This document shows, one piece after another, positions 1 through 60,779 of a DNA stretch of 64,000 nt. Source of the DNA: Arenicola marina. Taxonomy: Eukaryota > Annelida > Polychaeta > Arenicolidae. The notes beneath the pieces are model-generated. The model saw only the letters and a list, made by a program, of their open reading frames with translations. It searched no databases and was not told where the DNA came from. The stretch lies in contig OZ025249.1 in NCBI GenBank assembly GCA_964019135.1, positions 35,725,759 to 35,789,758 on the forward strand, written 5' to 3'. The number at the start of each line of letters is the position of its first letter. Within the stretch, counting starts at the first letter, position 1. Both the position numbers and the translations under genes were made by a program.

Positions 1-118
1 ATGCCCACCACATATCAAAATTTATAAATGCCATCAACACTAATATTGGCAGGATAATGTTATCAGGATCAAAGCATACAATAGGATATCTTATGTATTT
101 ATGAAGATAGCAACTTAC

Positions 119-3100
119 ACTTCGCGGAATGTATGCCACTGGGAACGGAAGAAGTCCCATGCAAAGCCTTTGCCAATTGGGTTTCCAGAGATAGCAGATA
201 TCACACTGGTAGCATCTTGAACTCTGATTTCATCGGCATTCAGCGACATTTCCAGATATCTGAAAATTAGGATCACCAACAAATTGAGACAAATGGGGAT
301 AACAACAACCGCCTCCAAGCCAGTTCTAGCAGTGTCACTGTATTTTATTAGTATTTACGTATTATCTCATGTGCATTATTGTTCGTACCTGTTGAGGATC
401 CATGGCTCTCTAGTGCAGGCCATGGCGGACAGAAGACTTCTAGCCTCGGCGGCGACATTGGATTTCTTGTACTGTTCGTAGGCAAAGTTCCACTCGTCCT
501 CGCCACCTCTCTTGATTCCATTGCAATAGACGGTCGACTTCAGATCTGGCTTAATGCTAAAAATCATAAAGTAACATTGTCAATGTAGTAGATCTGTCAA
601 GCGCAGTTAAGTTATTCGTAACTTGATTGTTTCTCTATCTAGACAACAAATATTCGACCAACACGATGCAATATCTGTCGCAACGGAGCCTTGAGGTTTA
701 ACTCACGGATTGTTGTCGGGGTCCATCATCCACTGTCGATAGAGGTTTGCAGACTGGTCCAAGCAATGGGAATGGCCCACAGCACACAAGTTGGACAGGG
801 TAATGATGCGCATGTACCTAAAATTGTAATTAAGCAATACCACTTATCGGTAAATAAACGTATCTCACTCATCAGTAATTAAAGGTAACGTACAGAGGCC
901 ATAACGGTTGGTACTGACCCGTTATTATTGTGCAGTAAGATTACGACTTGCACCGAACAACAGACCAACTCACTTTTGCAGTAGTTCCTTCGTTTCACTG
1001 TCATAGTCCCAGCCAAGTTCGTTGTAACGAGGCAGCATTTGCATTGTTATGTAGTCCTGGAACACATGGCATACTTACTTTAAATGCTACGTTAAGGTGT
1101 ATGCTGGACGCCAAAGCAAATTACACATATTTTGCTTGATAGAAAAACGCAACTAGTAAGTGAACGATTAAGCTTGTGGAGATGTCACTTCGGTCAAATG
1201 GTTGGCCACACTGGTCATTATTGTGCTAAAGAAACGACCAAGTACTGTTTGCCATACACAAATCAGTTCCTACTTACTTCGTACGCTCCATACGAGGCAG
1301 ATCGCTGTAGCATCCTTCTCACGTAACCCAGGTTGTTAAGTGCCGCTGCCCAAGGGACATATTCTGTCTCACTTCGCAAATATTCTGTCGCTCGTAATCC
1401 GATCAACAAGTCCAAGTATCCAGACCTGAAGATAAGAACTAGTTAAGTACTTCCGCGTTGGCTTATGTTTTAAGAACCAATCAAATACAACTATTTTACA
1501 GCCGACATGACGGACAAACAATCCTTCACTTCAAAGTGATGTCTTTAACAAATCGGCCACTTACTTCCCAAGGTTAAAGGCATCGTCGATCATTTGCGCC
1601 CTGTTTTTCACTGGAATGGCCTACAGGGAAACAAGAAAGACAGTAAAGCGCACGGTTAAAGGGTTGATGATGGTTATATCAAAACGCTGACTGAACACTT
1701 GAGCAATCCCTTTATCCCTTTCTGCATAACAGTTAAAACAAATCCAATTGTAACTGGTTCCCTGTTTTATTACCTCGTGGTTCATCGTCAGTTGGGTCAG
1801 AAGAGCGTCCCAGTTGTTGCTGTCATAATTCACTCGATAGTAGCCGTATTGTCCGACATTCCCTACAATCCATTCAGCGTCTGCGTTCAGGTTGCCGATG
1901 ATCACTGAAGAATGAAAAACGCAAGTGGCAAGATAAATGCAAATGTTTCAAGAGATATAGACTGAACATTTACCATTCCAGAAAGTATTATGCGACTTAC
2001 CATCTTCGCCTTCCATCCAAACAGAAGTAGGATTCTCCCATGATGGCGTTACGCTTGTCGTGTACGTCAAGGGAACAATCCACTTGTATCTATCAAGAAA
2101 CAATGATAGCTGTTAATATTTGAGAGGAACAAACATGGTTCATACAAGGAACATCCAAAGGACTATTATATTGCTTCAAAAATTTAGCTGAGATAAAAAC
2201 AGCTCAAGGACACAAATATAATCAGTGCAATACCCGAACGGGGACTGGTATTTATCGTCTGGTTGTGAGTCCGGGTCCGTCAGGAAGTGTTCTTGTGTGG
2301 CCAGTGCCGTGCTACCGCTCTGATCACGTGATATTGTCACCACAGGGTAGCCCATCTGTTGCACCCAGGTGTCCATGATTTGCGGCACGTTTATGGTGGT
2401 TAACCCTTGAGCTTCTGCTTCCTGTAGTAACAATAAAGTCATTCAATAAAAGCGTAGCAATGGAAAATGAATAATTGCACAACCAAAGCTTCACGCGACC
2501 ACAGTTAGCCAAAATTAATTGGCACTTCGGCCAGTACTATTTGACATATACTCAGTCATCCCAGTTATTATAAACAATAGGAATAGTTTTTCTATGCATT
2601 ACATTACGTTGAGGCGAAAGTCTCCTATTTCCAGTCCTCATGTACCCTTTAAAGAAATCAAACGTAAAAAAACAGTAGTAATATTTAAGCTATGCATATG
2701 GATACGAAATTTGAATTACTCTACCGAATCCTCTTGACGAGATTGTTACTGGTATCAATCTAAACCATTTCAGAGAAAATATACACTCACTTCTTGAAGT
2801 GCGTCCCACAAGTTGGTGTGGTTAGCATTTCCGTACGCGTATCGTCTCAAATACCGCTGTAAAGACAATGTCATATATCACTCAGTGACATGTTGTTGGA
2901 AATTCATTGATGATGTTTCATGTTGAAATATGCGGAGTCTCAACTTTGGTCATGCCTGCCTACACATACCCATGGCTTTCCAATTTGAAATGAATTTCAT
3001 AGTGATAATTTTGTTATTGGTATCATATATAGATACTTGACACTCTCCTAATTGCAACGGGCATTGTCATATTATCATACCGTCAATCCAGCCCGGAATA

Positions 3101-5792
3101 TGTCCTCTCCGAGGAAGTGGTTCATCATTCGGATGACGGAAGATCCCTTCAAAGATAGCACAACGGTGACAGATACATGTCGAGCAAAGCCCATTATGGC
3201 GGTGAGGTCATAACTATGGAATAATCATAATTATACTTTTCAAGTTGTGCTAAATATAAAAATGCATGCAAGCCTTAAGCAATGAATTTGTTCGGAAATA
3301 GGAACACATAAGACAGCTTCATTACCTTCAAGTAAGAAATCCTGTCGAAGATTTCATTGATTTCATCGGGATGGTTGACTGGGACATATAGGGGATGAGA
3401 CGAGCTCAGGCTATCTACTAAGAAGACCGGCTGAATATCGCGTACCAGATATTGCTCAGACTGAAACAGAGGAATGAACCTTGATGTACTAAGCTGCGGA
3501 AATATAAATTATCAAATAGACAAATTGAAACTGTTTTCTAAAAAACGAGTTCCAATCAATCGAAACCAAATGTGCTTAAAAGCACAAAACAACAATCAAA
3601 CGCGATTGCTCGATGAAAAGGAACTCGTGAGGTCTTTGTGGAGTAACTCACCATCTTCCACGTTGGTTCAATTTCGGCCAGACCAACATACTCCATGTAG
3701 CTGGCAAATCCTTCGTTGAGCCACAGGTCATCCCACCAGACAGGTGTCAGCAGGTTGCCAAACCACTGCAAAAGAGACCATCATGTAGCATCTATTCTTC
3801 CTTATTTCTCATGTTTATTTGCTTTAATACATTCATTCCATACTTACTTGATGTGCGAGCTCATGAACAACAACCACTGCCACGCGAACTTTGTTGGAAG
3901 CAGATGACACCATCGGATCGTACAACAGCGCAGTCTCGCGGTAGATAATCAGTCCCCAATTTTCCATCGCCCCCGCAGCAAAATCTGGCACAGCGATCAT
4001 GTCTGAAAAAAAGTATACCTCATGTATAACGCTCAAGTAAGTGAAAACATACATTGTAATGAAGTTCAGGTCACATCCACTCACCGATTTACTGCATTAT
4101 GAAATAAGCCATGTTTTTAAATTAATCACACGTATTAGAGATTACAGGTTGGGACAATCACAACGCTGTCGGAGTGGGGCATTCTCCATGACTCATACTC
4201 ATCTCAATGTAGCCGGGAGAATATTTACCTTGTTTAGGCAGCGGGAAGTCAATATTGAAGTAATGCTCGAAGTACTCCAGGGTTTTGACACCAGTTGTAA
4301 GGGCATAGTCCACTTGGTCAATGGCATCGGGTCGGGCCCACACTCGAAACTGTTTCAAACATTGCAAAAAGTATGTTATGCTATATTCTAGTTGAACACG
4401 TGCCATGTGTTTGCTATTTCATGGTTTTCAGAGAACCAGTACCCATGGATGAGTAAGAGATTTAGTCGATGGTTTGGTGGAAGATATCATTATTTACTGA
4501 GCGTTTATTTAGGTCATTTGGTTAAAAACTATCAATCGAATACGATAAGACAATTAACTCACCAAGGTCTGGCTGTTGTTTGTCCTCATCTCCCTATATT
4601 CAAAGTCGCAGATGATGAAGGCCAGCAGGTACGTCGACATCTTCACTGTCTCTCTGTAAATGTCAGCTTCCCAGCCGTTGCCCCTAGGTGAGCAAAGCAA
4701 TGATATAAAATGTACGGCTGTACACGAAAGCAAATAGCCCGTTGGCCTAAACTGACAGAGAGACAAACGAGATCAGTAACCATTGTCTAGAAGAAAAACA
4801 AACTTGAGAACACGTAGAAAACTTTGCGATCACATTCATTTGCTACGAACCTGTCTTCTGTCCGGATGATATCCATGTTAGACAGAGATTTCAGCTCTGA
4901 CTTCCTCACTAGGGTAGTGTTATAGGTAGTTTTCACTCCGGGTTCGTCAAAGCAGGGGAAGGCCTTGCGAGCGTCAGTCGGCTGCATTTGAGTGGTGACC
5001 AAGTACCTAGTGTAACAAATGACATTGATTTCTTGAAGGAAAATATACAAATTGGAAGTATCTTGTTGCAGTGACAAGCGATGAAAATTACATACAGGCT
5101 ACAAGTCATACCCTCGAGATACTGCATTGTGTCTATAATCTTGTTTCTGCTTCTTAATATTGATCATACGGCGATGCAATCATAATCAGAATGTAGTTTT
5201 TAAACGGTAGGAATGATGCCACTAACCTGGTCTCATCGCCAACCTTGTAGGAACTAAGGTACAGTCCGACTAAGTCCGGTCGCAACGGTCCGCTGAAGCT
5301 CATCTTCACCTTGTACTTGTCGCCTACAGTCAACATGGCTGACAGTTCAATGACCAAGAATTGTCGCACCTTGTCCTCGTGCCATGACATGATGGTGGGC
5401 ACGCTACCGCCAACCATCATGTTTTCAACGCGCAGCGTCCCTTCCTCGATCGTCAACTTGTTGATGTGCATCACCACTCGGTCCGTCGCAACTCGACACT
5501 CCACGAACACCTCCACCTCACCCTCGAACCGGAAGACATCGGGATCAGACCCGTAAAAGTCTGGCTTCAACTCCAGGTTGTAGTGCATGGGATATACATT
5601 CAGGGGTAGCCGTACGTCAACCACGGCAACTGGCGGCGGTTCGTCGTCGCTCGTCACTTCTATGAGCCACTCGCTGATCGGTGCTTCGTTTTGCTCCATC
5701 CACTTGATGTTGGCCTTGCAGTTTTCTATGGCCTGCTCCATGGCTCGTGCTCCGGAGCCAAGGTCGGGGTTGGCCATGCGGAATGCCTCCAT
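119..5792 (-). CDS. M1 peptidase domain 6, cut by the left window edge
   Basis: Exons: 5792-5227 (shared with domain 5), 5006-4851, 4683-4563, 4349-4229, 4002-3848, 3765-3652, 3460-3326, 3146-3081, 2856-2791, 2421-2234, 2089-2001, 1904-1774, 1620-1565, 1425-1278, 1056-974, 817-707, 556-389, 259-119. HELAH is at 3851-3865 and GAMEN at 3959-3973. The last visible exon ends with a normal donor (GTAAGTTG). From the 6107-bp period, the next 82-bp exon should start about 35 bp outside the window, so the domain is incomplete here only because the window ends. Whether a seventh domain or the true C-terminus follows cannot be seen. The intron 2422-2790 (369 bp) contains nothing recognisable. Confidence 0.87.
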
Positions 5793-8700
5793 CTGTCCGG
5801 AACAATCATAACAGTTATCACACATATAAATCTGTAATACCCTTTGATGGATCTTACGCTTTCCACAGATAATTTCATAACAGACGCTAAAGCCAATAAA
5901 GCCCTGTTGTGCGATACTGCAACAGCAATCAACAAGACCCATGAGGCATTGACAACATGTTTTGACGTTTTTCTGCGAAGCGTGTACTGACCTGTTGTAA
6001 TTCAAACTCCGTGTTAAATGATCGTGTGATAGCACTAATCACATTGGAAATGGCGAAGAAGCTTCCACCAAACCTAGGGAGAGAAAATAGCGAGAACGGT
6101 TATTTGTATGCCCACCACATATCAAAATTTATAAATGCCATCAACACTAATATTGGCAGGATAATGTTATCAGGATCAAAGCATACAATAGGATATCTTA
6201 TGTATTTATGAAGATAGCAACTTACACTTCGCGGAATGTATGCCACTGGGAACGGAAGAAGTCCCATGCAAAGCCTTTGCCAATTGGGTTTCCAGAGATA
6301 GCAGATATCACACTGGTAGCATCTTGAACTCTGATTTCATCGGCATTCAGCGACATTTCCAGATATCTGAAAATTAGGATCACCAACAAATTGAGACAAA
6401 TGGGGATAACAACAACCGCCTCCAAGCCAGTTCTAGCAGTGTCACTGTATTTTATTAGTATTTACGTATTATCTCATGTGCATTATTGTTCGTACCTGTT
6501 GAGGATCCATGGCTCTCTAGTGCAGGCCATGGCGGACAGAAGACTTCTAGCCTCGGCGGCGACATTGGATTTCTTGTACTGTTCGTAGGCAAAGTTCCAC
6601 TCGTCCTCGCCACCTCTCTTGATTCCATTGCAATAGACGGTCGACTTCAGATCTGGCTTAATGCTACAAATCATAAAGTAACATTGTCAATGTAGTAGAT
6701 CTGTCAAGCGCAGTTAAGTTATTCGTAACTTGATTGTTTCTCTATCTAGACAACAAATATTCGACCAACACGATGCAATATCTGTCGCAACGGAGCCTTG
6801 AGGTTTAACTCACGGATTGTTGTCGGGGTCCATCATCCACTGTCGATAGAGGTTTGCAGACTGGTCCAAGCAATGGGAATGGCCCACAGCACACAAGTTG
6901 GACAGGGTAATGATGCGCATGTACCTAAAATTGTAATTAAGCAATACCACTTATCGGTAAATAAACGTATCTCACTCATCAGTAATTAAAGGTAACGTAC
7001 AGAGGCCATAACGGTTGGTACTGACCCGTTATTATTGTGCAGTAAGATTACGACTTGCACCGAACAACAGACCAACTCACTTTTGCAGTAGTTCCTCCGT
7101 TTCACTGTCATAGTCCCAGCCAAGTTCGTTGTAACGAGGCAGCATTTGCATTGTTATGTAGTCCTGGAACACATGGCATACTTACTTTAAATGCTACGTT
7201 AAGGTGTATGCTGGACGCCAAAGCAAATTACACATATTTTGCTTGATAGAAAAACGCAACTAGTATGTGAACGATTAAGCTTGTGGAGATGTCACTTCGG
7301 TCAAATGGTTGGCCACGCTGGTCATTATTGTGCTAAAGAAACGACCAAGTACTGTTTGCCATACACAAATCAGTTCCTACTTACTTCGTACGCTCCATAC
7401 GAGGCAGATCGCTGTAGCATCCTTCTCACGTAACCCAGGTTGTTAAGTGCCGCTGCCCAAGGGACATATTCTGTCTCACTTCGCAAATATTCTGTCGCTC
7501 GTAATCCGATCAACAAGTCCAAGTATCCAGACCTGAAGATAAGAACTAGTTAAGTACTTCCGCGTTGGCTTATGTTTTAAGAACCAATCAAATACAACTA
7601 TTTTACAGCCAACATGACGGACAAACAATCCTTCACTTCAAAGTGATGTCTTTAACAAATCGGCCACTTACTTCCCAAGGTTAAAGGCATCGTCGATCAT
7701 TTGCGCCCTGTTTTTCACTGGAATGGCCTACAGGGAAACAAGAAAGACAGTAAAGCGCACGGTTAAAGGGTTGATGATGGTTATATCAAAACGCTGACTG
7801 AACACTTGAGCAATCCCTTTATCCCTTTCTGCATAACAGTTAAAACAAATCCATTTGTAACTGGTTCCCTGTTTTATTACCTCGTGGTTCATCGTCAGTT
7901 GGGTCAGAAGAGCGTCCCAGTTGTTGCTGTCATAATTCACTCGATAGTAGCCGTATTGTCCGACATTCCCTACAATCCATTCAGCGTCTGCGTTCAGGTT
8001 GCCGATGATCACTGAAGAATGAAAAACGCAAGTGGCAAGATAAATGCAAATGTTTCAAGAGATATAGACTGAACATTTACCATTCCAGAAGGTATTATGC
8101 GACTTACCATCTTCGCCTTCCATCCAAACAGAAGTAGGACTCTCCCATGATGGCGTCACGCTTGTCGTGTACGTCAAGGGAACAATCCACTTGTATCTAT
8201 CAAGAAACAATGATAGCTGTTAATATTTGAGAGGAACAAACATGGTTCATACAAGGAACATCCAAAGGACTATTATATTGCTTCAAAAATTTAGCTGAGA
8301 TAAAAACAGCTCAAGGACACAAATATAATCAGTGCAATACCCGAACGGGGACTGGTATTTATCGTCTGGTTGTGAGTCCGGGTCCGTCAGGAAGTGTTCT
8401 TGTGTGGCCAGTGCCGTGCTACCGCTCTGATCACGTGATATTGTCACCACAGGGTAGCCCATCTGTTGCACCCAGGTGTCCATGATTTGCGGCACGTTTA
8501 TGGTGGTTAACCCTTGAGCTTCTGCTTCCTGTAGTAACAATAAAGTCATTCAATAAAAGCGTAGCAATGGAAAATGAATAATTGCACAACCAAAGCTTCA
8601 CGCGACCACAGTTAGCCAAAATTAATTGGCACTTCGGCCAGTACTATTTGACATATACTCAGTCATCCCAGTTATTATAAACAATAGGAATAGTTTTTCT

Positions 8701-11700
8701 ATGCATTACATTACGTTGAGGCGAAAGTCTCTTATTTCCAGTCCTCATGTACCCTTTAAAGAAATCAAACGTAAAAAAACAGTAGTAATATTTAAGCTAT
8801 GCATATGGATACGAAATTTGAATTACTCTACCGAATCCTCTTGACGAGATTGTTACTGGTATCAATCTAAACCATTTCAGAGAAAATATAAACTCACTTC
8901 TTGAAGTGCGTCCCACAAGTTGGTGTGGTTAGCATTTCCGTACGCGTATCGTCTCAAATACCGCTGTAAAGACAATGTCATATATCACTCAGTGACATGT
9001 TGTTGGAAATTCATTGATGATGTTTCATGTTGAAATATGCGGAGTCTCAACTTTGGTCATGCCTGCCTACACATACCCATGGCTTTCCAATTTGAAATGA
9101 ATTTCATAGTGATAATTTTGTTATTGGTATCATATATAGATACTTGACACTCTTCTAATTGCAACGGGCATTGTCATATTATCATACCGTCAATCCAGCC
9201 CGGAATATGTCCTCTCCGAGGAAGTGGTTCATCATTCGGATGACGGAAGATCCCTTCAAAGATAGCACAACGGTGACAGATACATGTCGAGCAAAGCACA
9301 TTATGGCGGTGAGGTCATAACTATGGAATAATCATAATTATACTTTTCAAGTTGTGCTAAATATAAAAATGCATGCAAGCCTTAAGCAATGAATTTGTTC
9401 GGAAATAGGAACACATAAGACAGCTTCATTACCTTTAAGTAAGAAATCCTGTCGAAGATTTCATTGATTTCATCGGGATGGTTGACTGGGACATATAGGG
9501 GATGAGACGAGCTCAGGCTATCTACTAAGAAGACCGGCTGAATATCGCGTACCAGATATTGCTCAGACTGAAACAGAGGAATGAACCTTGATATACTAAG
9601 CTGCGGAAATATAAATTATCAAATAGACAAATTGAAACTGTTTTCTAAAAAACGAGTTCCAATCAATCGAAACTAAATGTGCTTAAAAGCACAAAACAAC
9701 AATCAAACGCGATTGCTCGATGAAAAGGAACTCGTGAGGTCTTTGTGGAGTAACTCACCATCTTCCACGTTGGTTCAATTTCGGCCAGACCAACATACTC
9801 CATGTAGCTGGCAAATCCTTCGTTGAGCCACAGGTCATCCCACCAGACAGGTGTCAGCAGGTTGCCAAACCACTGCAAAAGAGACCATCATGTAGCATCT
9901 ATTCTTCCTTATTTCTCATGTTTATTTGCTTTAATACATTCATTCCATACTTACTTGATGTGCGAGCTCATGAACAACAACCACTGCCACGCGAACTTTG
10001 TTGGAAGCAGATGACACCATCGGATCGTACAACAGCGCAGTCTCGCGGTAGATAATCAGTCCCCAATTTTCCATCGCCCCCGCAGCAAAATCTGGCACAG
10101 CGATCATGTCTGAAAAAAAGTATACCTCATGTATAACGCTCAAGTAAGTGAAAACATACATTGTAATGAAGTTCAGGTCACATCCACTCACCGATTTACT
10201 GCATTATGAAATAAGCCATGTTTTTAAATTAATCACATGTATTAGAGATTACAGGTTGGGACAATCACAACGCTGTCGGAGTGGGGCATTCTCCATGACT
10301 CATACTCATCTCAATGTAGCCGGGAGAATATTTACCTTGTTTAGGCAGCGGGAAATCAATATTGAAGTAATGCTCGAAGTACTCCAGGGTTTTGACACCA
10401 GTTGTAAGGGCATAGTCCACTTGGTCAATGGCATCGGGTCGGGCCCACACTCGAAACTGTTTCAAACATTGCAAAAAGTATGTTATGCTATATTCTAGTT
10501 GAACACGTGCCATGTGTTTGCTATTTCATGGTTTTCAGAGAACCAGTACCCATGGATGAGTAAGAGATTTAGTCGATGGTTTGGTGGAAGATATCATTAT
10601 TTACTGAGCGTTTATTTAGGTCATTTGGTTTAAAACTATCAATCGAATACGATAAGACAATTAACTCACCAAGGTCTGGCTGTTGTTTGTCCTCATCTCC
10701 CTATATTCAAAGTCGCAGATGATGAAGGCCAGCAGGTACGTCGACATCTTCACTGTCTCTCTGTAAATGTCAGCTTCCCAGCCGTTGCCCCTAGGTGAGC
10801 AAAGCAATGATATAAAATTTACGGCTGTACACGAAAGCAAATAGCCCGTTGGCCTAAACTGACAGAGACACAAACGAGATCAGTAACCATTGTCTAGAAG
10901 AAAAACAAACTTGAGAACACGTAGAAAACTTTGCGATCACATTCATTTGCTACGAACCTGTCTTCTGTCCGGATGATATCCATGTTAGACAGAGATTTCA
11001 GCTCTGACTTCCTCACTAGGGTAGTGTTATAGGTAGTTTTCACTCCGGGTTCGTCAAAGCAGGGGAAGGCCTTGCGAGCGTCAGTCGGCTGCATTTGAGT
11101 GGTGACCAAGTACCTAGTGTAACAAATGACATTGATTTCTTGAAGGAAAATATACAAATTGGAAGTATCTTGTTGCAGTGACAAGCGATGAAAATTACAT
11201 ACAGGCTACAAGTCATACCCTCGAGATACTGCATTGTGTCTATAATCTTGTTTCTGCTTCTTAATATTGATCATACGGCGATGCAATCATAATCAGAATG
11301 TAGTTTTGAAACGGTAGGAATGATGCCACTAACCTGGTCTCATCGCCAACCTTGTAGGAACTAAGGTACAGTCCGACTAAGTCCGGTCGCAACGGTCCGC
11401 TGAAGCTCATCTTCACCTTGTACTTGTCGCCTACAGTCAACATGGCTGACAGTTCAATGACCAAGAATTGTCGCACCTTGTCCTCGTGCCATGACATGAT
11501 GGTGGGCACGCTACCGCCAACCATCATGTTTTCAAGGCGCAGCGTCCCTTCTTCGATCGTCAACTTGTTGATGTGCATCACCACTCGGTCCGTCGCAACT
11601 CGACACTCCACGAACACCTCCACCTCACCCTCGAACCGGAAGACATCGGGATCAGACCCGTAAAAGTCTGGCTTCAACTCCAGGTTGTAGTGCATGGGAT

Positions 11701-14700
11701 ATACATTCAGGGGTAGCCGTACGTCAACCACGGCAACTGGCGGCGGTTCGTCGTCGCTCGTCACTTCTATGAGCCACTCGCTGATCGGTGCTTCGTTTTG
11801 CTCCATCCACTTGATGTTGGCCTTGCAGTTTTCTATGGCCTGCTCCATGGCTCGTGCTCCGGAGCCAAGGTCGGGGTTGGCCATGCGGAATGCCTCCATC
11901 TGTCCGGAACAATCATAACAGTTATCACACATATAAATCTGTAATACCCTTTGATGGATCTTACGCTTTCCACAGATAATTTCATAACAGACGCTAAAGC
12001 CAATAAAGCCCTGTTGTGCGATACTGCAACAGCAATCAACAAGACCCATGAGGCATTGACAACATGTTTTGACGTTTTTCTGCGAAGCGTGTACTGACCT
12101 GTTGATAATCAAACTCCGTGTTAAATGATCGTGTGATAGCACTAATCACATTGGAAATGGCGAAGAAGCTTCCACCAAACCTAGGGAGAGAAAATAGCGA
12201 GAACGGTTATTTGTATGCCCACCACATATCAAAATTTATAAATGCCATCAACACTAATATTGGCAGGATAATGTTATCAGGATCAAAGCATACAATAGGA
12301 TATCTTATGTATTTATGAAGATAGCAACTTACACTTCGCGGAATGTATGCCACTGGGAACGGAAGAAGTCCCATGCAAAGCCTTTGCCAATTGGGTTTCC
12401 AGAGATAGCAGATATCACACTGGTAGCATCTTGAACTCTGATTTCATCGGCATTCAGCGACATTTCCAAATATCTGAAAATTAGGATCACCAACAAATTG
12501 AGACAAATGGGGATAACAACAACCGCCTCCAAGCCAGTTCTAGCAGTGTCACTGTATTTTATTAGTATTTACGTATTATCTCATGTGCATTATTGTTCGT
12601 ACCTGTTGAGGATCCATGGCTCTCTAGTGCAGGCCATGGCGGACAGAAGACTTCTAGCCTCGGCGGCGACATTGGATTTCTTGTACTGTTCGTAGGCAAA
12701 GTTCCACTCGTCCTCGCCACCTCTCTTGATTCCATTGCAATAGACGGTCGACTTCAGATCTGGCTTAATGCTACAAATCATAAAGTAACATTGTCAATGT
12801 AGTAGATCTGTCAAGCGCAGTTAAGTTATTCGTAACTTGATTGTTTCTCTATCTAGACAACAAATATTCGACCAACACGATGCAATATCTGTCGCAACGG
12901 AGCCTTGAGGTTTAACTCACGGATTGTTGTCGGGGTCCATCATCCACTGTCGATAGAGGTTTGCAGACTGGTCCAAGCAATGGGAATGGCCCACAGCACA
13001 CAAGTTGGACAGGGTAATGATGCGCATGTACCTAAAATTGTAATTAAGCAATACCACTTATCGGTAAATAAACGTATCTCACTCATCGGTAATTAAAGGT
13101 AACGTACAGAGGCCATAACGGTTGGTACTGACCCGTTATTATTGTGCAGTAAGATTACGACTTGCACCGAACAACAGACCAACTCACTTTTGCAGTAGTT
13201 CCTCCGTTTCACTGTCATAGTCCCAGCCAAGTTCGTTGTAACGAGGCAGCATTTGCATTGTTATGTAGTCCTGGAACACATGGCATACTTACTTTAAATG
13301 CTACGTTAAGGTGTATGCTGGACGCCAAAGCAAATTACACATATTTTGCTTGATAGAAAAACGCAACTAGTAAGTGAACGATTAAGCTTGTGGAGATGTC
13401 ACTTCGGTCAAATGGTTGGCCACACTGGTCATTATTGTGCTAAAGAAACGACCAAGTACTGTTTGCCATACACAAATCAGTTCCTACTTACTTCGTACGC
13501 TCCATACGAGGCAGATCGCTGTAGCATCCTTCTCACGTAACCCAGGTTGTTAAGTGCCGCTGCCCAAGGGACATATTCTGTCTCACTTCGCAAATATTCT
13601 GTCGCTCGTAATCCGATCAACAAGTCCAAGTATCCAGACCTGAAGATAAGAACTAGTTAAGTACTTCCGCGTTGGCTTATGTTTTAAGAACCAATCAAAT
13701 ACAACTATTTTACAGCCGACATGACGGACAAACAATCCTTCACTTCAAAGTGATGTCTTTAACAAATCGGCCACTTACTTCCCAAGGTTAAAGGCATCGT
13801 CGATCATTTGCGCCCTGTTTTTCACTGGAATGGCCTACAGGGAAACAAGAAAGACAGTAAAGCGCACGGTTAAAGGGTTGATGATGGTTATATCAAAACG
13901 CTGACTGAACACTTGAGCAATCCCTTTATCCCTTTCTGCATAACAGTTAAAACAAACCCAATTGTAACTGGTTCCCTGTTTTATTACCTCGTGGTTCATC
14001 GTCAGTTGGGTCAGAAGAGCGTCCCAGTTGTTGCTGTCATAATTCACCCGATAGTAGCCGTATTGTCCGACATTCCCTACAATCCATTCAGCGTCTGCGT
14101 TCAGGTTGCCGATGATCACTGAAGAATGAAAAACGCAAGTGGCAAGATAAATGCAAATGTTTCAAGAGATATAGGCTGAACATTTACCATTCCAGAAAGT
14201 ATTATGCGACTTACCATCTTCGCCTTCCATCCAAACAGAAGTAGGACTCTCCCATGATGGCGTCACGCTTGTCGTGTACGTCAAGGGAACAATCCACTTG
14301 TATCTACCAAGAAACAATGATAGCTGTTAATATTCGAAAGGAACAAACATGGTTCATGCAAGGAACATTCAAAGGACTATATTATATTGCCTCAAAACTT
14401 TAGCTGATATAAAAAAAGCTCAAGGTCACAAATATAATCAGTGCAATACCCGAACGGGGACTGGTATTTATCGTCTGGTTGTGAGTCCGGGTCCGTCAGG
14501 AAGTGTTGTTGTGTGGCCAGTGCCGTGCTACGGCTCTCATCACGTGATATCGTCACCACAGGGTAGCCCATCTGTTGCACCCAGGTGTCCATGATTTGCG
14601 GGACGTTTATGGTGGTTAACCCTTGAGCTTCTGCTTCCTGTAGTAACAATAAAATCACTTGATGAAAGCGTAGCAATGGAAAATGAATAATTGCACAACC

Positions 14701-44700: not shown

Positions 44701-47700
44701 GGTCGTGGATGGTTTCCCTTTAACATTGGACTTGACAAATAAATGATACTCGTACACGGGTAGACACAAGTAGGCTGGCGGTCAAAGTTATATATAATGG
44801 ATGCGATGGACAGCTGTTGGGTTGGTGATGTTCAGTGCTCATGGTAGTGAGCGAGATTGATTGAAGTGTTTCATAGGTCATAGCACATCAATTTTGGTCG
44901 GTTCGCATTAATTTCAGAAAGCAATTAAATGTTCAACGGCAAGTCAGATCCAGACTATAAAGCGTGGAATATGGTTACACTGATTCTAAGAAAACCGATT
45001 TTCGAGATAGGGCAGCGGAGAACTAACCCTCTTTGACATACTTAGGGGTCTGGGAGGGCTAAATGGCGATACGCGACACGGGCATGCATATTTGAAAAAT
45101 CTACATTCGATATTGACACCTAAATTCCGACACTGAGGATCTTAAAAAGCGACATCGACACATATCTTTGAAAAAATGTAACACTGAACTTACCTAAAAG
45201 TGACACGGAGGGTTGTGAAATATCAACATTCAACACTGAACACCGGACCCCTATACTTATGGGGATTAATGTGGAAGTCCGTTGTTTTGATCCCCTTTTT
45301 GATCCAGGACAGTGACCCTTTGTGGGAGTCCGTTGTTTTGATCCCCTTTTTGATCCAGGACAGTGACCCTTTGTGGGAGCCCGTGTTGAATCATGAGATA
45401 CCTACGGGTGTGTTTATTCCATGTACACATCAAATACGACGCAGAGGAAGAAGTGAATCTTGATCCGCATGAACTACTTTAAGGTTGCCCGGTTACAAAA
45501 CACGACTACCCCCCCCCCCACCCCCCACCCTTCTTGGGAGCTTGAGCATACACTGCAAAACTCGGGCTTTTCAGCGAAATACATTGGAAAGCGACATTTT
45601 GTAGATGCAACCCAGAGGCAGATCCAAGGGGGGGGGGGTTGTTAAAGGGGATGTTAAGGACTTAAAATGGAAAACATGTCCACCCTGCCCCCCCACCCTC
45701 TCGGTTGTAAAAAAATGATGGACCTCCGCGGTCATTTTCAGCGCCCCCCCACCCCGTCGCAGTTTTCATAGACAGTCCCCCTCACCCCGGTCGCAACCCC
45801 CCCCCCTTTTCCAAAATCCTAGATCCGCCCCTGTTCGATAGACAGAACATTAAAATAAACAATAATTATAAACGAACTTTCTGCCCGATTAATTACCGTT
45901 TGTTTTTCATCGCCTGAATGCATAAAAAAATATGCGATAGTGATAATATACACTCACTACTTGCGCTTAGTAAATACATCTCTCTGGTAGATACCTACGA
46001 GTGTGTTTATTTCATGTACACATCAAATACGACGCAGAAGAAGTGAATCTTGATCCGCATGAACTACTTTAAGGTTGCCCGGTTACAAAAATCGTCTATC
46101 GACTTGACATGTCGGCCCCTGGCGTTTCGCGACCGAGACCAGTGTTAAAGTGCGACTCAGTGCTAATGTTTCTTGCGACAAGACTTACGTTTGAAGAGTT
46201 TTTTTCCACAAACTTGACGCATGCATTTTCCTGAATAGGTCACAATATTCATCATATCTGCATCATTCAGAAACTAAACTGGACATTGGATTAACATTAA
46301 ACTATTTTGTTTGAGGCACAGACGGTACATGACTTTAAATATTTGACGCCGTCTCGCTCTGTTGCCGCGTTCTCTTGTCGTCCCACAGCGTTGTGCTAAA
46401 CACTGTATGTATAGCGCCGCCCCATAGAGTCAAAGACCTTCGGCATGTCGCCACCCCATAGAGTCAGAGACCTTCGGCATGTCGGCACCCCATAGAGTCA
46501 AAGACCTTCGGCATGTCGCCACCCCATAGAGTCAAAGACCTTCGGCATGTCGCCACCCCATAGAGTCAAAGACCTTCGGCATGTCGCCACCCCATAGAGT
46601 CAAAGACCTTCGGCATGTCGCCGCCCCATAGAGTCAAAGACCTTCGGCATGTCGCCACCCCATAGAGTCAAAGACCTTCGGCATGCCGATACCCCATAGA
46701 GTCAAAGACCTTCGGCATGCCGCCACCCCATAGAGTCAAAGACCTTCGCCATGCCGCCACCCCATAGAGTTACAGACCTTCGGCATGCCCCCACCCCATA
46801 GAGTCAAAGACCTTCGGCATGCCGCCACCCCATAGAGTCAAAGACCTTCGGCATGCCGCCACCCCATAGAGTCAAGGATCTTCGGCATGACGCCACCCCA
46901 TAGAGTTACAGACCTTCGGCATGACGCCCCCCCGTATAGAGTCAACGACCTTCGGCATGCCTCCACCCCATAGAGTCAAAGACCTTCGGCATGCCGCCAC
47001 CCCATAGAGTTAAAGACCTTCGGCATGCCGCCACCCCGTAGAGTCACAGACCTTCGGCATGCCGCCACCCCCTAGTCAAAGACCTTCGGCATGCCGCCAC
47101 CCCATAGGGTCACAGACCTTCGGCATGCCGCCACCCCCTAGTCAAAGACCTTCGGCATGCCGCCACCCCATAGAGTCAAAGACCTTCGCCATGCCGCCAC
47201 CCCATAGAGTCAAAGACCTTCGGCATGCCGCCACCCCATAGAGTCAAAGACCTTCGCCATGCCGCCACCCAATAGAGTCACAGACCTTCGGCATGCCGCC
47301 ACCCCATAGAGTCAAAGACCTTCGGCATGCCGCCACCCCATAGAGTCACAGACCTTCGGCATGCCGCCACCCCATAGAGTCAAAGACCTTCGGCATTCCA
47401 CGCCATAGAGTCAGAGATCTTCGGCATGCCCCCCACCCCATAGAGTCAAGGACCTTCGGCATGCCGCCACCCCATAGAGTCAAAGACCTTCGGCATGCCG
47501 CCACCCCATAGAGTCAAAGACCTTCGGCATGCCGCCACCCCATAGAGTTACAGACCTTCGGCATGACGCCACCCCATAGAGTCAAAGACCTTCGCCATGC
47601 CGCCACCCCATAGAGTCACAGACCTTCGGCATGCCGCCACCCCATAGAGTCACAGACCTTCGGCATGCCGCCACCCCATAGAGTCACAGATCTTCGGCAT

Positions 47701-50700
47701 GCCACGTCATAGAGTCACAGACCTTCGGCATGCCCCCCACCCCATAGAGTCAAAGACCTTCGACATGCCGCCACCCCATAGAGTCAAAGACCTTCGCCAT
47801 GCCGCCACCCCATAGAGTCAAAGACCTTCGGCATGCCGCCACCCCCTAGTCAAAGACCTTCGGCATGCCGCCACCCCATAGAGTCAAAGACCTTCGGCAT
47901 GCCGCCACCCCCTAGTCAAAGACCTTCGGCATGCCGCCAACCCATAGAGTCACAGACCTTCGCCATGCCGCCACCCCATAGAGTCACAGACCTTCGGCAT
48001 GCCGCCACCCCATAGAGTCACAGACCTTCGCCATGCCGCCACCCCATAGTCACAGACCTTCGGCATGCCGCCACCCCATAGAGTCAAAGACCTTCGCCAT
48101 GCCGCCACCCCATAGTCACAGACCTTCGGCATGCCGCCACCCCATAGAGTCAAAGACCTTCGGCATGCCGCCACCCCATAGAGTCACAGACCTTCGCCAT
48201 GCCGCCACCCCATAGTCACAGACCTTCGGCATGCCGCCACCCCATAGAGTCAAAGACCTTCGGCATGCCGCCACCCCATAGAGTCAAAGACCTTCGGCAT
48301 GCCGCCACCCCATAGAGTCAAAGACCTTCGCCATGCCGCCACGCCATAGTGTCACAGACCTTCGGCATGTCGCCACCCCATAGAGTCACAGACCTTTAGC
48401 ATGCCGCCACCCCATAGAGTCAAAGACCTTCGGCATGCCGCCACCCCATAGAGTCAAAGACCTTCGGCGTGCAGCCACCCCATAGAGTCAAAGACCTTCG
48501 CCATGCCGCCACGCCATAGAGTCTCAGACCTTCGGCATGCAGCCACTCCATAGAGTCAAAGACCTTCGCCATGCCGCCACCCCATAGAGTCACAGACCTT
48601 CGGCATGCCGCCACCCCATAGAGTCAAAGATCTTCGGCATGCCGCCACCCCATAGTCACAGACCTTCGGCATGTCGCCACCCCATAGAGTCAAAGACCTT
48701 CGGCATGTCGCCGCCCCATAGAGTCAAAGACCTTCGGCATGTCGCCACCCCATAGAGTCAAAGACCTTCGGCATGTCGATACCCCATAGAGTCAAAGACC
48801 TTCGGCATGCCGCCACCCCCTAGTCAAAGACCTTCGGCATGCCGCCACCCCATAGAGTCAAAGACCTTCGGCATGCCGCCACCCCATAGAGTCAAAGACC
48901 TTCGGCATGCCGCCACCCCATAGAGTCAAGGACCTTCGGCATGACGCCACCCCATAGAGATACAGACCTTCGGCATGACGCCACCCCATAGAGTCAAAGA
49001 CCTTCGGCATGCCTCCACCCCATAGAGTCAAAGACCTTCGGCATGCCGCCACCCCATAGAGTTAAAGACCTTCGGCATGCCGCCACCCCGTAGAGTCACA
49101 GACCTTCGGCATGCCGCCACCCCCTAGTCAAAGACCTTCGGCATGCCGCCACCCCATAGAGTCAAAGACCTTCGGCATGCCGCCACCCCATAGAGTCAAG
49201 GACCTTCGGCATGACGCCACCCCATAGAGTTACAGACCTTCGGCATGACGCCACCCCATAGAGTCAAAGACCTTCGGCATGCCTCCACCCTATAGAGTCA
49301 AAGACCTTCGGCATGCCGCCACCCCATAGAGTTAAAGACCTTCGGCATGCCGCCACCCCGTAGAGTCACAGACCTTCGGCATGCCGCCACCCCCTAGTCA
49401 AAGACCTTCGGCATGCCGCCACCCCATAGGGTCACAGACCTTCGGCATGCCGCCACCCCCTAGTCAAAGACCTTCGGCATGCCGCCACCCCATAGAGTCA
49501 AAGACCTTCGCCATGCCGCCACCCCATAGAGTCAAAGACCTTCGGCATGCCGCCACCCCATAGAGTCAAAGACCTTCGCCATGCCGCCACCCCATAGAGT
49601 CACAGACCTTCGGCATGCCGCCACCCCATAGAGTCAAAGACCTTCGGCATGCCGCCACCCCATAGAGTCACAGACCTTCGGCATGCCGCCACCCCATAGA
49701 GTCAAAGACCTTCGGCATGCCACGCCATAGAGTCACAGATCTTCGGCATGCCCCCCACCCCATAGAGTCAAGGACCTTCGGCATGCCGCCACCCCATAGA
49801 GTCAAAGACCTTCGGCATGCCGCCACCCCATAGAGTCAAAGACCTTCGGCATGCCGCCACCCCATAGAGTTACAGACCTTCGGCATGACGCCACCCCATA
49901 GAGTCAAAGACCTTCGCCATGCCGCCACCCCATAGAGTCACAGACCTTCGGCATGCCGCCACCCCATAGAGTCAAAGACCTTCGCCATGCCGCCACCCCA
50001 TAGAGTCACAGACCTTCGGCATGCCCCCCACCCCATAGAGTCAAGGACCTTCGGCATGCCGCCACCCCATAGAGTCAAAGACCTTCGCCATGCCGCCACC
50101 CCATAGAGTCACAGATCTTCGGCATGCCACGCCATAGAGTCACAGATCTTCGGCATGCCCCCCACCCCATAGAGTCAAGGACCTTCGGCATGCCGCCACC
50201 CCCTAGTCAAAGACCTTCGGCATGCCGCCACCCCATAGAGTCAAAGACCTTCGGCATGCCGCCACCCCATAGAGTCAAAGACCTTCGGCATGCCGCCACC
50301 CCATAGAGTCAAGGACCTTCGGCATGACGCCACCCCATAGAGTTACAGACCTTCGGCATGACGCCACCCCATAGAGTCAAAGACCTTCGGCATGCCGCCA
50401 CCCCATAGAGTCAAAGACCTTCGGCATGTCGCCACCCCATAGAGTCAAAGACCTTCGGCATGCCTCCACCCCATAGAGTCAAAGACCTTCGGCATGCCGC
50501 CACCCCATAGAGTTAAAGACCTTCGGCATGCCGCCACCCCGTAGAGTCACAGACCTTCGGCATGCCGCCACCCCCTAGTCAAAGACCTTCGGCATGCCGC
50601 CACCCCATAGGGTCACAGACCTTCGGCATGCCGCCACCCCCTAGTCAAAGACCTTCGGCATGCCGCCACCCCATAGAGTCAAAGACCTTCGCCATGCCGC

Positions 50701-53700
50701 CACCCCATAGAGTCAAAGACCTTCGGCATGCCGCCACCCCATAGAGTCAAAGACCTTCGCCATGCCGCCACCCCATAGAGTCACAGACCTTCGGCATGCC
50801 GCCACCCCATAGAGTCAAAGACCTTCGGCATGCCGCCACCCCATAGAGTCACAGACCTTCGGCATGCCGCCACCCCATAGAGTCAAAGACCTTCGGCATG
50901 CCACGCCATAGAGTCACAGATCTTCGGCATGCCCCCCACCCCATAGAGTCAAGGACCTTCGGCATGCCGCCACCCCATAGAGTCAAAGACCTTCGGCATG
51001 CCGCCACCCCATAGAGTCAAAGACCTTCGGCATGCCGCCACCCCATAGAGTTACAGACCTTCGGCATGACGCCACCCCATAGAGTCCAAGACCTTCGCCA
51101 TGCCGCCACCCCATAGAGTCACAGACCTTCGGCATGCCGCCACCCCATAGAGTCAAAGACCTTCGCCATGCCGCCACCCCATAGAGTCACAGACCTTCGG
51201 CATGCCGCCACCCCATAGAGTCAAAGATCTTCGGCATGCCGCCACCCCATAGTCACAGACCTTCGGCATGTCGCCACCCCATAGAGTCAAAGACCTTCGG
51301 CATGTCGCCACCCCATAGAGTCAAAGACCTTCGGCATGTCGCCGCCCCATAGAGTCAAAGACCTTCGGCATGTCGCCACCCCATAGAGTCAAAGACCTTC
51401 GGCATGTCGATACCCCATAGAGTCAAAGACCTTCGGCATGCCGCCACCCCCTAGTCAAAGACCTTCGGCATGCCGCCACCCCATAGAGTCAAAGACCTTC
51501 GGCATGCCGCCACCCCATAGAGTCAAAGACCTTCGGCATGCCGCCACCCCATAGAGTCAAAGACCTTCGGCATGCCGCCACCCCATAGAGTCAAAGACCT
51601 TCGGCATGCCGCCACCCCATAGAGTCAAGGACCTTCGGCATGACGCCACCCCATAGAGATACAGACCTTCGGCATGACGCCACCCCATAGAGTCAAAGAC
51701 CTTCGGCATGCCTCCACCCCATAGAGTCAAAGGCCTTCGGCATGCCGCCACCCCATAGAGTTAAAGACCTTCGGCATGCCGCCACCCCGTAGAGTCACAG
51801 ACCTTCGGCATGCCGCCACCCCCTAGTCAAAGACCTTCGGCATGCCGCCACCCCATAGAGTCAAAGACCTTCGGCATGCCGCCACCCCATAGAGTCAAGG
51901 ACCTTCGGCATGACGCCACCCCATAGAGTTACAGACCTTCGGCATGACGCCACCCCATAGAGTCAAAGACCTTCGGCATGCCTCCACCCTATAGAGTCAA
52001 AGACCTTCGGCATGCCGCCACCCCATAGAGTTAAAGACCTTCGGCATGCCGCCACCCCGTAGAGTCACAGACCTTCGGCATGCCGCCACCCCCTAGTCAA
52101 AGTCCTTCGGCATGCCGCCACCCCATAGGCTCACAGACCTTCGGCATGCCGCCACCCCCTAGTCAAAGACCTTCGGCATGCCGCCACCCCATAGAGTCAA
52201 AGACCTTCGCCATGCCGCCACCCCATAGAGTCAAAGACCTTCGGCATGCCGCCACCCCATAGAGTCAAAGACCTTCGCCATGCCGCCACCCCATAGAGTC
52301 ACAGACCTTCGGCATGCCGCCACCCCATAGAGTCAAAGACCTTCGGCATGCCGCCACCCCATAGAGTCACAGACCTTCGGCATGCCGCCACCCCATAGAG
52401 TCAAAGACCTTCGGCATGCCACGCCATAGAGTCACAGATCTTCGGCATGCCCCCCACCCCATAGAGTCAAGGACCTTCGGCATGCCGCCACCCCATAGAG
52501 TCAAAGACCTTCGGCATGCCGCCACCCCATAGAGACAAAGACCTTCGGCATGCCGCCACCCCATAGAGTTACAGACCTTCGGCATGACGCCACCCCATAG
52601 AGTCAAAGACCTTCGCCATGCCGCCACCCCATAGAGTCACAGACCTTCGGCATGCCGCCACCCCATAGAGTCACAGACCTTCGGCATGCCGCCACCCCAT
52701 AGAGTCACAGACCTTCGGCATGCCCCCCACCCCATAGAGTCAAGGACCTTCGGCATGCCGCCACCCCATAGAGTCAAAGACCTTCGCCATGCCGCCACCC
52801 CATAGAGTCACAGATCTTCGGCATGCCACGCCATAGAGTCACAGATCTTCGGCATGCCCCCCACCCCATAGAGTCAAGGACCTTCGGCATGCCGCCACCC
52901 CCTAGTCAAAGACCTTCGGCATGCCGCCACCCCATAGAGTCAAAGACCTTCGGCATGCCACCACCCCATAGAGTCAAAGACCTTCGGCATGCCGCCACCC
53001 CATAGAGTCAAGGACCTTCGGCATGACGCCACCCCATAGAGTTACAGACCTTCGGCATGACGCCACCCCATAGAGTCAAAGACCTTCGGCATGCCTCCAC
53101 CCCATAGAGTCAAAGACCTTCGGCATGCCGCCACCCCATAGAGTTAAAGACCTTCGGCATGCCGCCACCCCGTAGAGTCACAGACCTTCGGCATGCCGCC
53201 ACCCCCTAGTCAAAGACCTTCGGCATGCCGCCACCCCATAGGGTCACAGACCTTCGGCATGCCGCCACCCCCTAGTCAAAGACCTTCGGCATGCCGCCAC
53301 CCCATAGAGTCAAAGACCTTCGCCATGCCGCCACCCCATAGAGTCAAAGACCTTCGGCATGCCGCCACCCCATAGAGTCAAAGACCTTTGCCATGCCGCC
53401 ACCCCATAGAGTCACAGACCTTCGGCATGCCGCCACCCCATAGAGTCAAAGACCTTCGGCATGCCGCCACCCCATAGAGTCACAGACCTTCGGCATGCCG
53501 CCACCCCATAGAGTCAAAGACCTTCGGCATGCCACGCCATAGAGTCACAGATCTTCGGCATGCCCCCCACCCCATAGAGTCAAGGACCTTCGGCATGCCG
53601 CCACCCCATAGAGTCAAAGACCTTCGGCATGCCGCCACCCCATAGAGTCAAAGACCTTCGGCATGCCGCCACCCCATAGAGTTACAGACCTTCGGCATGA

Positions 53701-56700
53701 CGCCACCCCATAGAGTCCAAGACCTTCGCCATGCCGCCACCCCATAGAGTCACAGACCTTCGGCATGCCGCCACCCCATAGAGTCAAAGACCTTCGCCAT
53801 GCCGCCACCCCATAGAGTCACAGACCTTCGGCATGCCGCCACCCCATAGAGTCAAAGACCTTCGGCATGCCGCCACCCCATAGAGTCACAGATCTTCGGC
53901 ATGCCACGCCATAGAGTCACAGATCTTCGGCATGCCGCCACCCCATAGAGTCAAAGACCTTCGGCATGCCGCCACCCCATAGAGTCACAGACCTTCGGCA
54001 TGCCGCCACCCCATAGAGTCAAAGACCTTCGGCATGCCACGCCATAGAGTCACAGATCTTCGGCATGCCCCCCACCCCATAGAGTCAAGGACCTTCGGCA
54101 TGCCGCCACCCCATAGAGTCAAAGACCTTCGGCATGCCGCCACCCCATAGAGACAAAGACCTTCGGCATGCCGCCACCCCATAGAGTTACAGACCTTCGG
54201 CATGACGCCACCCCATAGAGTCAAAGACCTTCGCCATGCCGCCACCCCATAGAGTCACAGACCTTCGGCATGCCGCCACCCCATAGAGTCAAAGACCTTC
54301 GCCATGCCGCCACCCCATAGAGTCACAGACCTTCGGCATGCCCCCCACCCCATAGAGTCAAGGACCTTCGGCATGCCGCCACCCCATAGAGTCAAAGACC
54401 TTCGCCATGCCGCCACCCCATAGAGTCACAGATCTTCGGCATGCCACGCCATAGAGTCACAGATCTTCGGCATGCCCCCCACCCCATAGAGTCAAGGACC
54501 TTCGGCATGCCGCCACCCCCTAGTCAAAGACCTTCGGCATGCCGCCACCCCATAGAGTCAAAGACCTTCGGCATGCCACCACCCCATAGAGTCAAAGACC
54601 TTCGGCATGCCGCCACCCCATAGAGTCAAGGACCTTCGGCATGACGCCACCCCATAGAGTTACAGACCTTCGGCATGACGCCACCCCATAGAGTCAAAGA
54701 CCTTCGGCATGCCTCCACCCCATAGAGTCAAAGACCTTCGGCATGCCGCCACCCCATAGAGTTAAAGACCTTCGGCATGCCGCCACCCCGTAGAGTCACA
54801 GACCTTCGGCATGCCGCCACCCCCTAGTCAAAGACCTTCGGCATGCCGCCACCCCATAGGGTCACAGACCTTCGGCATGCCGCCACCCCCTAGTCAAAGA
54901 CCTTCGGCATGCCGCCACCCCATAGAGTCAAAGACCTTCGCCATGCCGCCACCCCATAGAGTCAAAGACCTTCGGCATGCCGCCACCCCATAGAGTCAAA
55001 GACCTTTGCCATGCCGCCACCCCATAGAGTCACAGACCTTCGGCATGCCGCCACCCCATAGAGTCAAAGACCTTCGGCATGCCGCCACCCCATAGAGTCA
55101 CAGACCTTCGGCATGCCGCCACCCCATAGAGTCAAAGACCTTCGGCATGCCACGCCATAGAGTCACAGATCTTCGGCATGCCCCCCACCCCATAGAGTCA
55201 AGGACCTTCGGCATGCCGCCACCCCATAGAGTCAAAGACCTTCGGCATGCCGCCACCCCATAGAGTCAAAGACCTTCGGCATGCCGCCACCCCATAGAGT
55301 TACAGACCTTCGGCATGACGCCACCCCATAGAGTCCAAGACCTTCGCCATGCCGCCACCCCATAGAGTCACAGACCTTCGGCATGCCGCCACCCCATAGA
55401 GTCAAAGACCTTCGCCATGCCGCCACCCCATAGAGTCACAGACCTTCGGCATGCCGCCACCCCATAGAGTCAAAGACCTTCGGCATGCCGCCACCCCATA
55501 GAGTCACAGATCTTCGGCATGCCACGCCATAGAGTCACAGATCTTCGGCATGCCCCCCACCCCATAGAGTCAAGGACCTTCGGCATGCCGCCACCCCCTA
55601 GTCAAAGACCTTCGCCATGCCGCCACCCCATAGAGTCACAGACCTTCGGCATGCCGCCACCCCATAGAGTCACAGACCTTCGGCATGCCGCCACCCCATA
55701 GAGTCACAGACCTTCGGCATGCCGCCACCCCCTAGTCAAAGACCTTCGGCATGCCGCCACCCCATAGTCACAGACCTTCGGCATGCCGCCACCCCATAGA
55801 GTCAAAGACCTTCGGCATGCTGCCACCCCATAGAGTCACAGACCTTTGGCATGCTGCCACCCCATAGTCACAGACCTTTAGCATGCCGCCACCCCATAGA
55901 GTCACAGACCTTTGGCATGCTGCCACCCCATAGTCACAGACCTTTAGCATGCCGCCACCCCATAGAGTCAAAGACCTTCGGCATGCTGCCACCCCATAGA
56001 GTCAAAGACCTTCGGCATGCCGCCACCCCATAGAGTCAAAGACCTTCGCCATGCCGCCACCCCATAGAGTCAAAGACCTTCGGCATGCCGCCATCCCATA
56101 GTCACAGACCTTTAGCATGCCGCCACCCTATAGGGTCAAAGACCTTCGGCCTGCCGCCACCCCCCCACCCTCATAGAGTCAAAGACCTTCGGCATGCCGC
56201 CCAATAAGACCCAGATATCACGACTTTTGACACACAAGCATGTGAATCTCCGAGTTAAAACAGAGTATAACATTTCAAGTTGAAACATGAAGCCATTATG
56301 TACACAGCCGGTATATGTAAACTCCTGCTAGGCACGAGAATGCATCTATTGTACTCGTCGGATATTTTTACAACACGGTGTCAGTGGGGTGCTTTTTTTC
56401 GCCAACTACGTGCCGTGCGAGAATGGACCCCACCGTTACATTGTTACTGAATATATATGTTATTCTTGACTTGTTTGTATGCACGGTTCACGTGGTGGTA
56501 GTTCATTCGTACATATATAATGCACTGACACCACACGAAGCATAGTTTGCCGCATCTCGTGAATCTCGTATTCTGCAAACTTTAAGGCAGATACAGACTT
56601 AAATTGATAGAACGTACATCGAGGGTAGACTTCGTCACAGCTAAATCACAACGATATGGCAGCCAGGCTTGCAATGATGAGGTTGAAGAGGAAAACCCGA

Positions 56701-60299: not shown

Positions 60300-60681
60300 G
60301 GCTGGAATTCATGGGGCGTGTGAAGGGGGCGAGTGGGGGGGGGGGGGGGGGTGCGCACGTGCCCCTCTTTCAGACCCTAAAGTATACTCCCCCTTATTCG
60401 AATTTTGTGCCTCTGGCCTCTTCTTAGATATCAAACTGCATAAAGCTTCGGCATCTTTGCGCAATTTTGTTCAGACCCCCCCCCCCTGTCTTCAACAATT
60501 TGTAGGACACCCTTTTCGCAATTTTGTTCAAAACCCCTCAATCCGCGGTCGCAAGTCTTCAGTGGACCCACCCCCCCTCCCCAAATTTTGAGGAAGAACG
60601 CTGAGGCGTGCCCCGCCCCCCCCCACCAGGTCGCAAGTTTTTAATGGACCCCCCGTTTTCAAATTCCTGTATCCGCCCCTG
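60300..60681. repeat. C-rich interspersed repeat, copy 3
   Basis: Shares gaccctaaagtatact and the caattttgttca words with poly-C runs. It ends in atccgcccctg, the terminus also seen at 45833. Probably the same degenerate family as 30690-31320. Confidence 0.5.
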
Positions 60682-60779
60682 ATGTTTTATTGTCATTTTA
60701 TTGTCCACCCCCCCTTTTCTCTACAGTCCCCTGCAGAACGCATAGTCCCTGTGTTATTGTCCACTATTCGATGATAGGT

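Follow-up and report, generated by a model that had tools for sequence, protein, structure and literature searches.

One predicted gene for at least six tandem aminopeptidase N-type ectodomains on a single membrane anchor in Arenicola marina

The window analysed here is a 64,000-nt stretch of the Arenicola marina genome (assembly GCA_964019135.1, contig OZ025249.1, positions 35,725,759 to 35,789,758 of the forward strand). Self-comparison showed its left part to be tandemly repeated, with a period of ~6.1 kb. An ungapped scan of the three minus-strand frames with 20 anchor peptides, taken from the translated first unit, an aminopeptidase N (APN)-like M1 domain, returned 118 ordered matches at a threshold of at least half the self-score. 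Eighteen of the 20 anchors were found in six copies each and the two C-terminal ones in five, and no stop codon fell inside any match. The same scan gave no match on the plus strand of the window and none on either of two reversed, non-complemented control sequences. With 118 ordered matches as opposed to zero in three controls, the M1 units of the initial annotation, six of them arranged head to tail, are borne out and lie on the minus strand; we refer to them as U1 to U6, and to the exons between them as junction exons J1/2 to J5/6.

Elsewhere in the window, overlapping glycine- and proline-rich ORFs at 60312-60720 may represent a dispersed repeat fragment, and two tested ORFs of this region gave no Pfam match. 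Rfam and tRNA searches returned 0 matches.

A dynamic-programming splice model yielded 114 exons and 113 GT-AG introns, coding for 5,491 residues with 0 stops. The model is open at the window's left edge, with the last in-window exon ending at position 119. Since it enforced phase compatibility, phase agreement alone is not independent evidence. Not built into the model was the agreement in exon length across units: none of the 18 internal exons varies in length among the units in which it is present, and all five junction exons measure 566 bp. From these single lengths and the 566-bp junction exons, U1 to U5 come to exactly 899 residues each. The earlier wording ‘complete or nearly complete’ holds for these five units and needs qualifying for U6, of which only 813 of 899 residues lie within the window; the C-terminus of U6, plus the gene end or further units, is beyond window position 1. 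Among the splice sites that score weakly are the exon 9 donors, the J2/3 and J3/4 acceptors, and those before exon 3 in U3 to U6.

Table 1 Features of the locus, in window coordinates.
Feature	Position	Strand	Basis
Exon 1: start codon, short cytoplasmic tail, predicted transmembrane anchor, first extracellular residues	58838..59081	-	ORF scan, splice model
34-bp minisatellite, ~289 copies, inside intron 1	46415..56163	.	repeat scan, intron 1 from model
Exon 2: Ser/Thr/Pro-rich stalk and N-terminal part of U1 M1 domain	41093..41789	-	acceptor phase, Pfam
Unit 1 (U1), complete M1 domain, divergent copy	34784..41484	-	anchors, splice model, motifs
Junction exon J1/2, U1 C-terminus and U2 N-terminus in one frame	34350..34915	-	566 bp, 0 stops
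Unit 2 (U2), complete M1 domain	24045..34741	-	anchors, splice model, Pfam on spliced stretch
Junction exon J2/3	23611..24176	-	566 bp, 0 stops in frame
Unit 3 (U3), complete M1 domain	17923..24002	-	anchors, splice model, 899 aa, human APN match
Junction exon J3/4	17489..18054	-	566 bp, 0 stops in frame
Unit 4 (U4), complete M1 domain, recombinant	11768..17880	-	anchors, splice model, sliding identity
Junction exon J4/5	11334..11899	-	566 bp, 0 stops in frame
Unit 5 (U5), complete M1 domain	5661..11725	-	anchors, splice model
Junction exon J5/6	5227..5792	-	566 bp, 0 stops in frame
Unit 6 (U6), M1 domain through exon 17	119..5618	-	anchors, splice model
Introns 18 before the five junction exons	35074-34916, 24357-24177, 18235-18055, 12098-11900, 5991-5793		splice model

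Exon 1 begins at an ATG at 59081. Three minus-strand ORFs combined an ATG with a hydrophobic segment, and one of the three, the anchor exon, carried a consensus donor, in agreement with the single anchor exon proposed initially. This minus-strand scan gave no further candidate anchor with a consensus donor; it used one hydrophobicity cut-off and three donor patterns, settings that could overlook a weaker signal peptide. The exon 1 ORF matched no Pfam family. Exon 2 is preceded by the acceptor TTTTTCATTTTCAG (before 41789), the phase of which matches the exon 1 donor, and its ORF scored for Peptidase_M1_N in Pfam (6.4e-14). A U1 exon start at 41498 in the first gene model was replaced, the acceptor at 41789 being the better one. 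The hydrophobic segment in exon 1 and the Ser/Thr/Pro-rich exon 2 suggest the product to be a type II membrane protein with a stalk, a topology read from the features of these two exons.

The stalk is coded by a degenerate Ser/Pro/Thr repeat of 6, 12, 24 or 30 bp (window 41556-41703), perhaps reflecting a length-variable, mucin-like stalk. Intron 1, ~17 kb long, separates the anchor exon from the stalk exon, a length at which the model may have overlooked small intervening exons. The minisatellite inside it spans 9.7 kb, with a GC content of about 0.59 and a strong GC skew, and ~10 copies of an 85-bp tandem repeat lie just upstream of the stalk exon (window 42020-42859).

Comparison of the units revealed synonymous divergence to drop along the array from U1 to U6. 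While U1 differed from all others with a dS of 0.54-0.60 (84-85% amino-acid identity), values fell to 0.13-0.19 for U2 versus U3 to U6, 0.081 for U3-U4, 0.059 for U4-U5 and 0.0075 for U5-U6; the most similar copies thus look recently made. U2 stands apart in its introns 1 to 3, which measure 812, 3242 and 1021 bp (window 28693-34166) as compared to 167-229 bp in U3 to U6, suggesting inserted sequence. U2 exons 1 and 2 share 83-85% identity with U3, as compared to 92-100% for the other internal exons.

Is the number of units real? An alignment of the repeat periods at 1-6107 and 6108-12214, the two that contain U6 and U5, has no gaps and 27 mismatches in 6,107 positions, so close a match that one unit could stem from an assembly duplication or a joined haplotype; likewise, the U5-U6 dS of 0.0075 could be allelic variation. 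That the array is partly an assembly artefact, its near-identical units duplicated and the true unit number lower, nevertheless seems unlikely to us, given that the other 14 unit pairs have dS values of 0.059-0.60 and that the intron lengths of U1 and U2 are unlike those of U3 to U6. Moreover, an artefact of this kind could remove one unit, not the fusion: if one unit were an assembly duplicate, at least five would remain, with the fusion untouched.

The fusion itself is most evident in the junction exons. Their coordinates in the splice model coincide exactly with those given initially at all five junctions, each exon being 566 bp long. Every one of the five has a single open frame with 0 stops, as opposed to 7-13 stops in the other two frames; for J1/2, frame 1 is the open one and the other two contain 12 and 8. 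In this frame, a linker connects the last residues of an ERAP1_C domain to the beginning of the following M1_N domain (5/5), and the J3/4 ORF scored for Peptidase_M1_N in Pfam (1.6e-14). The linker comprises ~16 residues and is identical at the five junctions.

One could picture a polyprotein, with cleavage of the full-length translation product at its linkers releasing single-domain aminopeptidases that are for the most part soluble. The five identical linkers would suit this scenario, as would the fact that the first unit alone adjoins the membrane. However, the linker is devoid of Lys and Arg and so offers no dibasic site, the only type of cleavage site considered, and we rate such processing as improbable.

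The units could also belong to a cluster of separate tandem APN genes with hidden boundaries, each transcribed alone. Animals often carry APN genes in tandem clusters, and at two of the five junctions the intron after the junction exon contains a poly(A)-like hexamer (23542 and 17420), out of 68 such hexamers on the minus strand in total. Both, however, lie downstream of the next unit's start. If the genes were separate, each should have its own start, its own anchor or signal and its own stop, and the junction exons contain none of these: at all five, the C- and N-termini of adjoining units share one exon and one frame without a stop, and in the minus-strand scan described above exon 1 is the one anchor exon with a consensus donor. 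We consequently deem a cluster of individually transcribed genes very unlikely.

The preferred reading, which we regard as likely, is a single gene encoding a type II membrane protein with at least six APN-type M1 ectodomains. As a prediction from sequence, it upholds the initial proposal in its main parts: internal gene ends are seen nowhere in the array, with 0 stops across the five junction exons, and one gene would code for a single anchor followed by six or more M1 ectodomains in tandem, the modelled 5,491 residues exceeding the 5,400 that had been put forward as a lower bound.

With respect to family, Pfam analysis of a spliced stretch of 1,301 of the 5,491 residues, running from J1/2 through U2 into U3, returned two Peptidase_M1_N, two Peptidase_M1 and one ERAP1_C match, all above cut-off, with the order Peptidase_M1_N, Peptidase_M1, ERAP1_C found in this stretch. 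U3 matched human APN (4fyq) over residues 3-886 (884 of 899; E 9.6e-245, 818 bits), and a crude 878-residue concatenate of U1 matched the same structure over query residues 5-877 (E 3e-223). Human APN ranked first among solved relatives for both queries, which represent two of the six units. The zinc site HELAHQ-X18-E (HEXXH-X18-E) and the GAMEN exopeptidase motif are intact in all six units, and the positions of human APN Phe472 and Tyr477 are kept in all six. The position of Gln213 is occupied by Gln in U2 to U6 (5/6) and by Ala in U1. According to the docking passage of PMC7226027, human APN Gln213 contacts the free amine of the ligand together with Glu355 and Glu411.

By the features tested, the units are M1 aminopeptidases of the APN type, with the exception of the Gln213 position in U1. 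The chain would accordingly present five canonical APN sites plus one divergent site, in U1, of uncertain strength; U1, the divergent and presumably older copy, may have altered specificity or reduced activity. The dN/dS values are 0.089-0.209 in all 15 unit pairs, pairs that are non-independent because of conversion among copies. That these are pseudogene copies in a decaying or unexpressed array is scarcely credible in the face of 0 stops in 5,491 codons, no frameshifts between units, dN/dS below 0.21 in 15/15 pairs, and checked catalytic residues kept in all six units except for Gln213 in U1.

How might such a gene have grown? The intron before the junction exon is in phase 0 at all five junctions, so that a module of 19 exons—the junction exon and the next 18—is bordered by phase-0 introns, and crossing-over within those introns leaves the frame unchanged. 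Compared in 500-column windows from 12215 upwards, U4 is 99.0-99.8% identical to the U5 repeat for 2 kb, and 89-96% identical beyond, with 63% in the last window. Against the U3 repeat, the same comparison gives 86-93% over the first 2 kb, then 91-99.6%. Judged by this sliding identity, U4 is a recombinant, its 3′ part (low coordinates) U5-like and its 5′ part U3-like, and looks like a crossing-over product. The breakpoint falls roughly at 14.0-14.7 kb (window 12215-18369).

Homogenisation proceeds exon by exon, with U1 and U2 showing synonymous differences per site that range from 0.11 in exon 9 to 0.91 in exon 1. It goes furthest in the junction exon, where all ten pairs of copies have 0-1 synonymous changes in the ~26 sites of the C-terminal part, while the adjoining exon 18 has a pS of 0.81 for U1-U2. 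Intron 18, which lies directly before the junction exon, falls into three dissimilar types—that of U1, that of U2 and U3, and that of U4 and U5—with 100% identity within a type and a forced identity of 57-70% between types. The simplest reading of this pattern would be that conversion is confined to regions where the copies have stayed similar.

We propose the following origin. As the structure of the junction exon suggests, the last exon of one APN gene would have been fused in frame with the first ectodomain exon of its neighbour. The module bounded by phase-0 introns could then have been multiplied by unequal crossing-over with the frame intact, a step for which the recombinant U4 provides direct evidence in the sequence. 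Conversion between units, to which the synonymous divergence points, would keep some exons alike, above all the junction exon. The resulting chain is predicted to have a short tail in the cytoplasm, to cross the membrane once as a helix, and to continue outside through a Ser/Thr/Pro-rich stalk into at least six ectodomains. Most likely, it would operate as a tethered row of independent exopeptidases, with more active sites per anchor and per transcript; from the family, a multivalent surface peptidase can be fairly inferred, and the digestive role suggested initially would be one possibility.

More tentatively, the locus might be a protein-coding VNTR whose repeats are whole enzymes, in which frame-safe crossing-over of the 19-exon module, itself phase-symmetric, changes the number of domains from one individual to the next and conversion holds the junction exon uniform. 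We consider this possible, though short of probable. If true, exopeptidase dose per molecule would be a variable genetic trait. A chain of six or more M1 ectodomains would make it testable whether many tethered exopeptidase sites improve peptide trimming or only raise the dose. In addition, the locus offers a readable record of how a whole-enzyme concatemer may grow, comprising a fusion exon, phase-0 borders, a recombinant unit and exon-limited homogenisation.

No tandem M1 chain was found among the papers listed, which come largely from openly accessible literature. Papers with possible multi-M1 wording were set aside, as the passages in question concern two paralogous genes, M10 C-terminal domains or M16 members. 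Among the matches listed (the best 60 of 120 for the U1 concatenate and 55 for U3), the longest PDB chain has 1,184 residues, which is too short for two units; in the U1 search, six ERAP1 rows reflected a match split into two stretches of one domain. As a prokaryotic control, 80 loci were kept of the 591 M1 loci confirmed among the matches listed, and 0 of these 80—some cut by contig ends—carried more than one M1 signature per ORF. Multi-M1 proteins are possible in other organisms, and multi-domain APN-like predictions may exist in insects.

Among known systems, APN (ANPEP/CD13) is the closest in its domain: the Arenicola marina units resemble it in the near whole-length match, GAMEN, HEXXH-X18-E and the Tyr477 position, and the predicted chain shares its single transmembrane start and stalk. 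Unlike APN, which usually has one catalytic ectodomain per chain, the Arenicola marina chain is predicted to have at least six, and U1 has Ala in place of Gln213. Glutamyl aminopeptidase, ERAP1, ERAP2, LNPEP and PSA contain the same M1 domain over most of a unit (609, 541, 531, 495 and 491 bits with U3, respectively, compared to 818-820 for human APN), with one unit per chain. Two-domain arginine kinases and Artemia polymeric haemoglobin are invertebrate concatemers that arose by whole-domain duplication; they are alike in this mode of chain growth, but are not membrane-anchored aminopeptidases.

Tandem whole-domain ectopeptidases as a kind are already known from somatic ACE, with two M2 domains, and carboxypeptidase D, with three M14 domains. 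Both are membrane-anchored exopeptidases in which an entire catalytic domain was duplicated in tandem and in frame, and in this respect are similar to the chain predicted here. They belong to other families, however, and have two or three domains as opposed to six or more; furthermore, their duplications are old, whereas several in Arenicola marina look recent. If the single-gene reading is true, the repetition of a whole ectopeptidase domain would extend from two copies, as in ACE, or three, as in carboxypeptidase D, to six or more.
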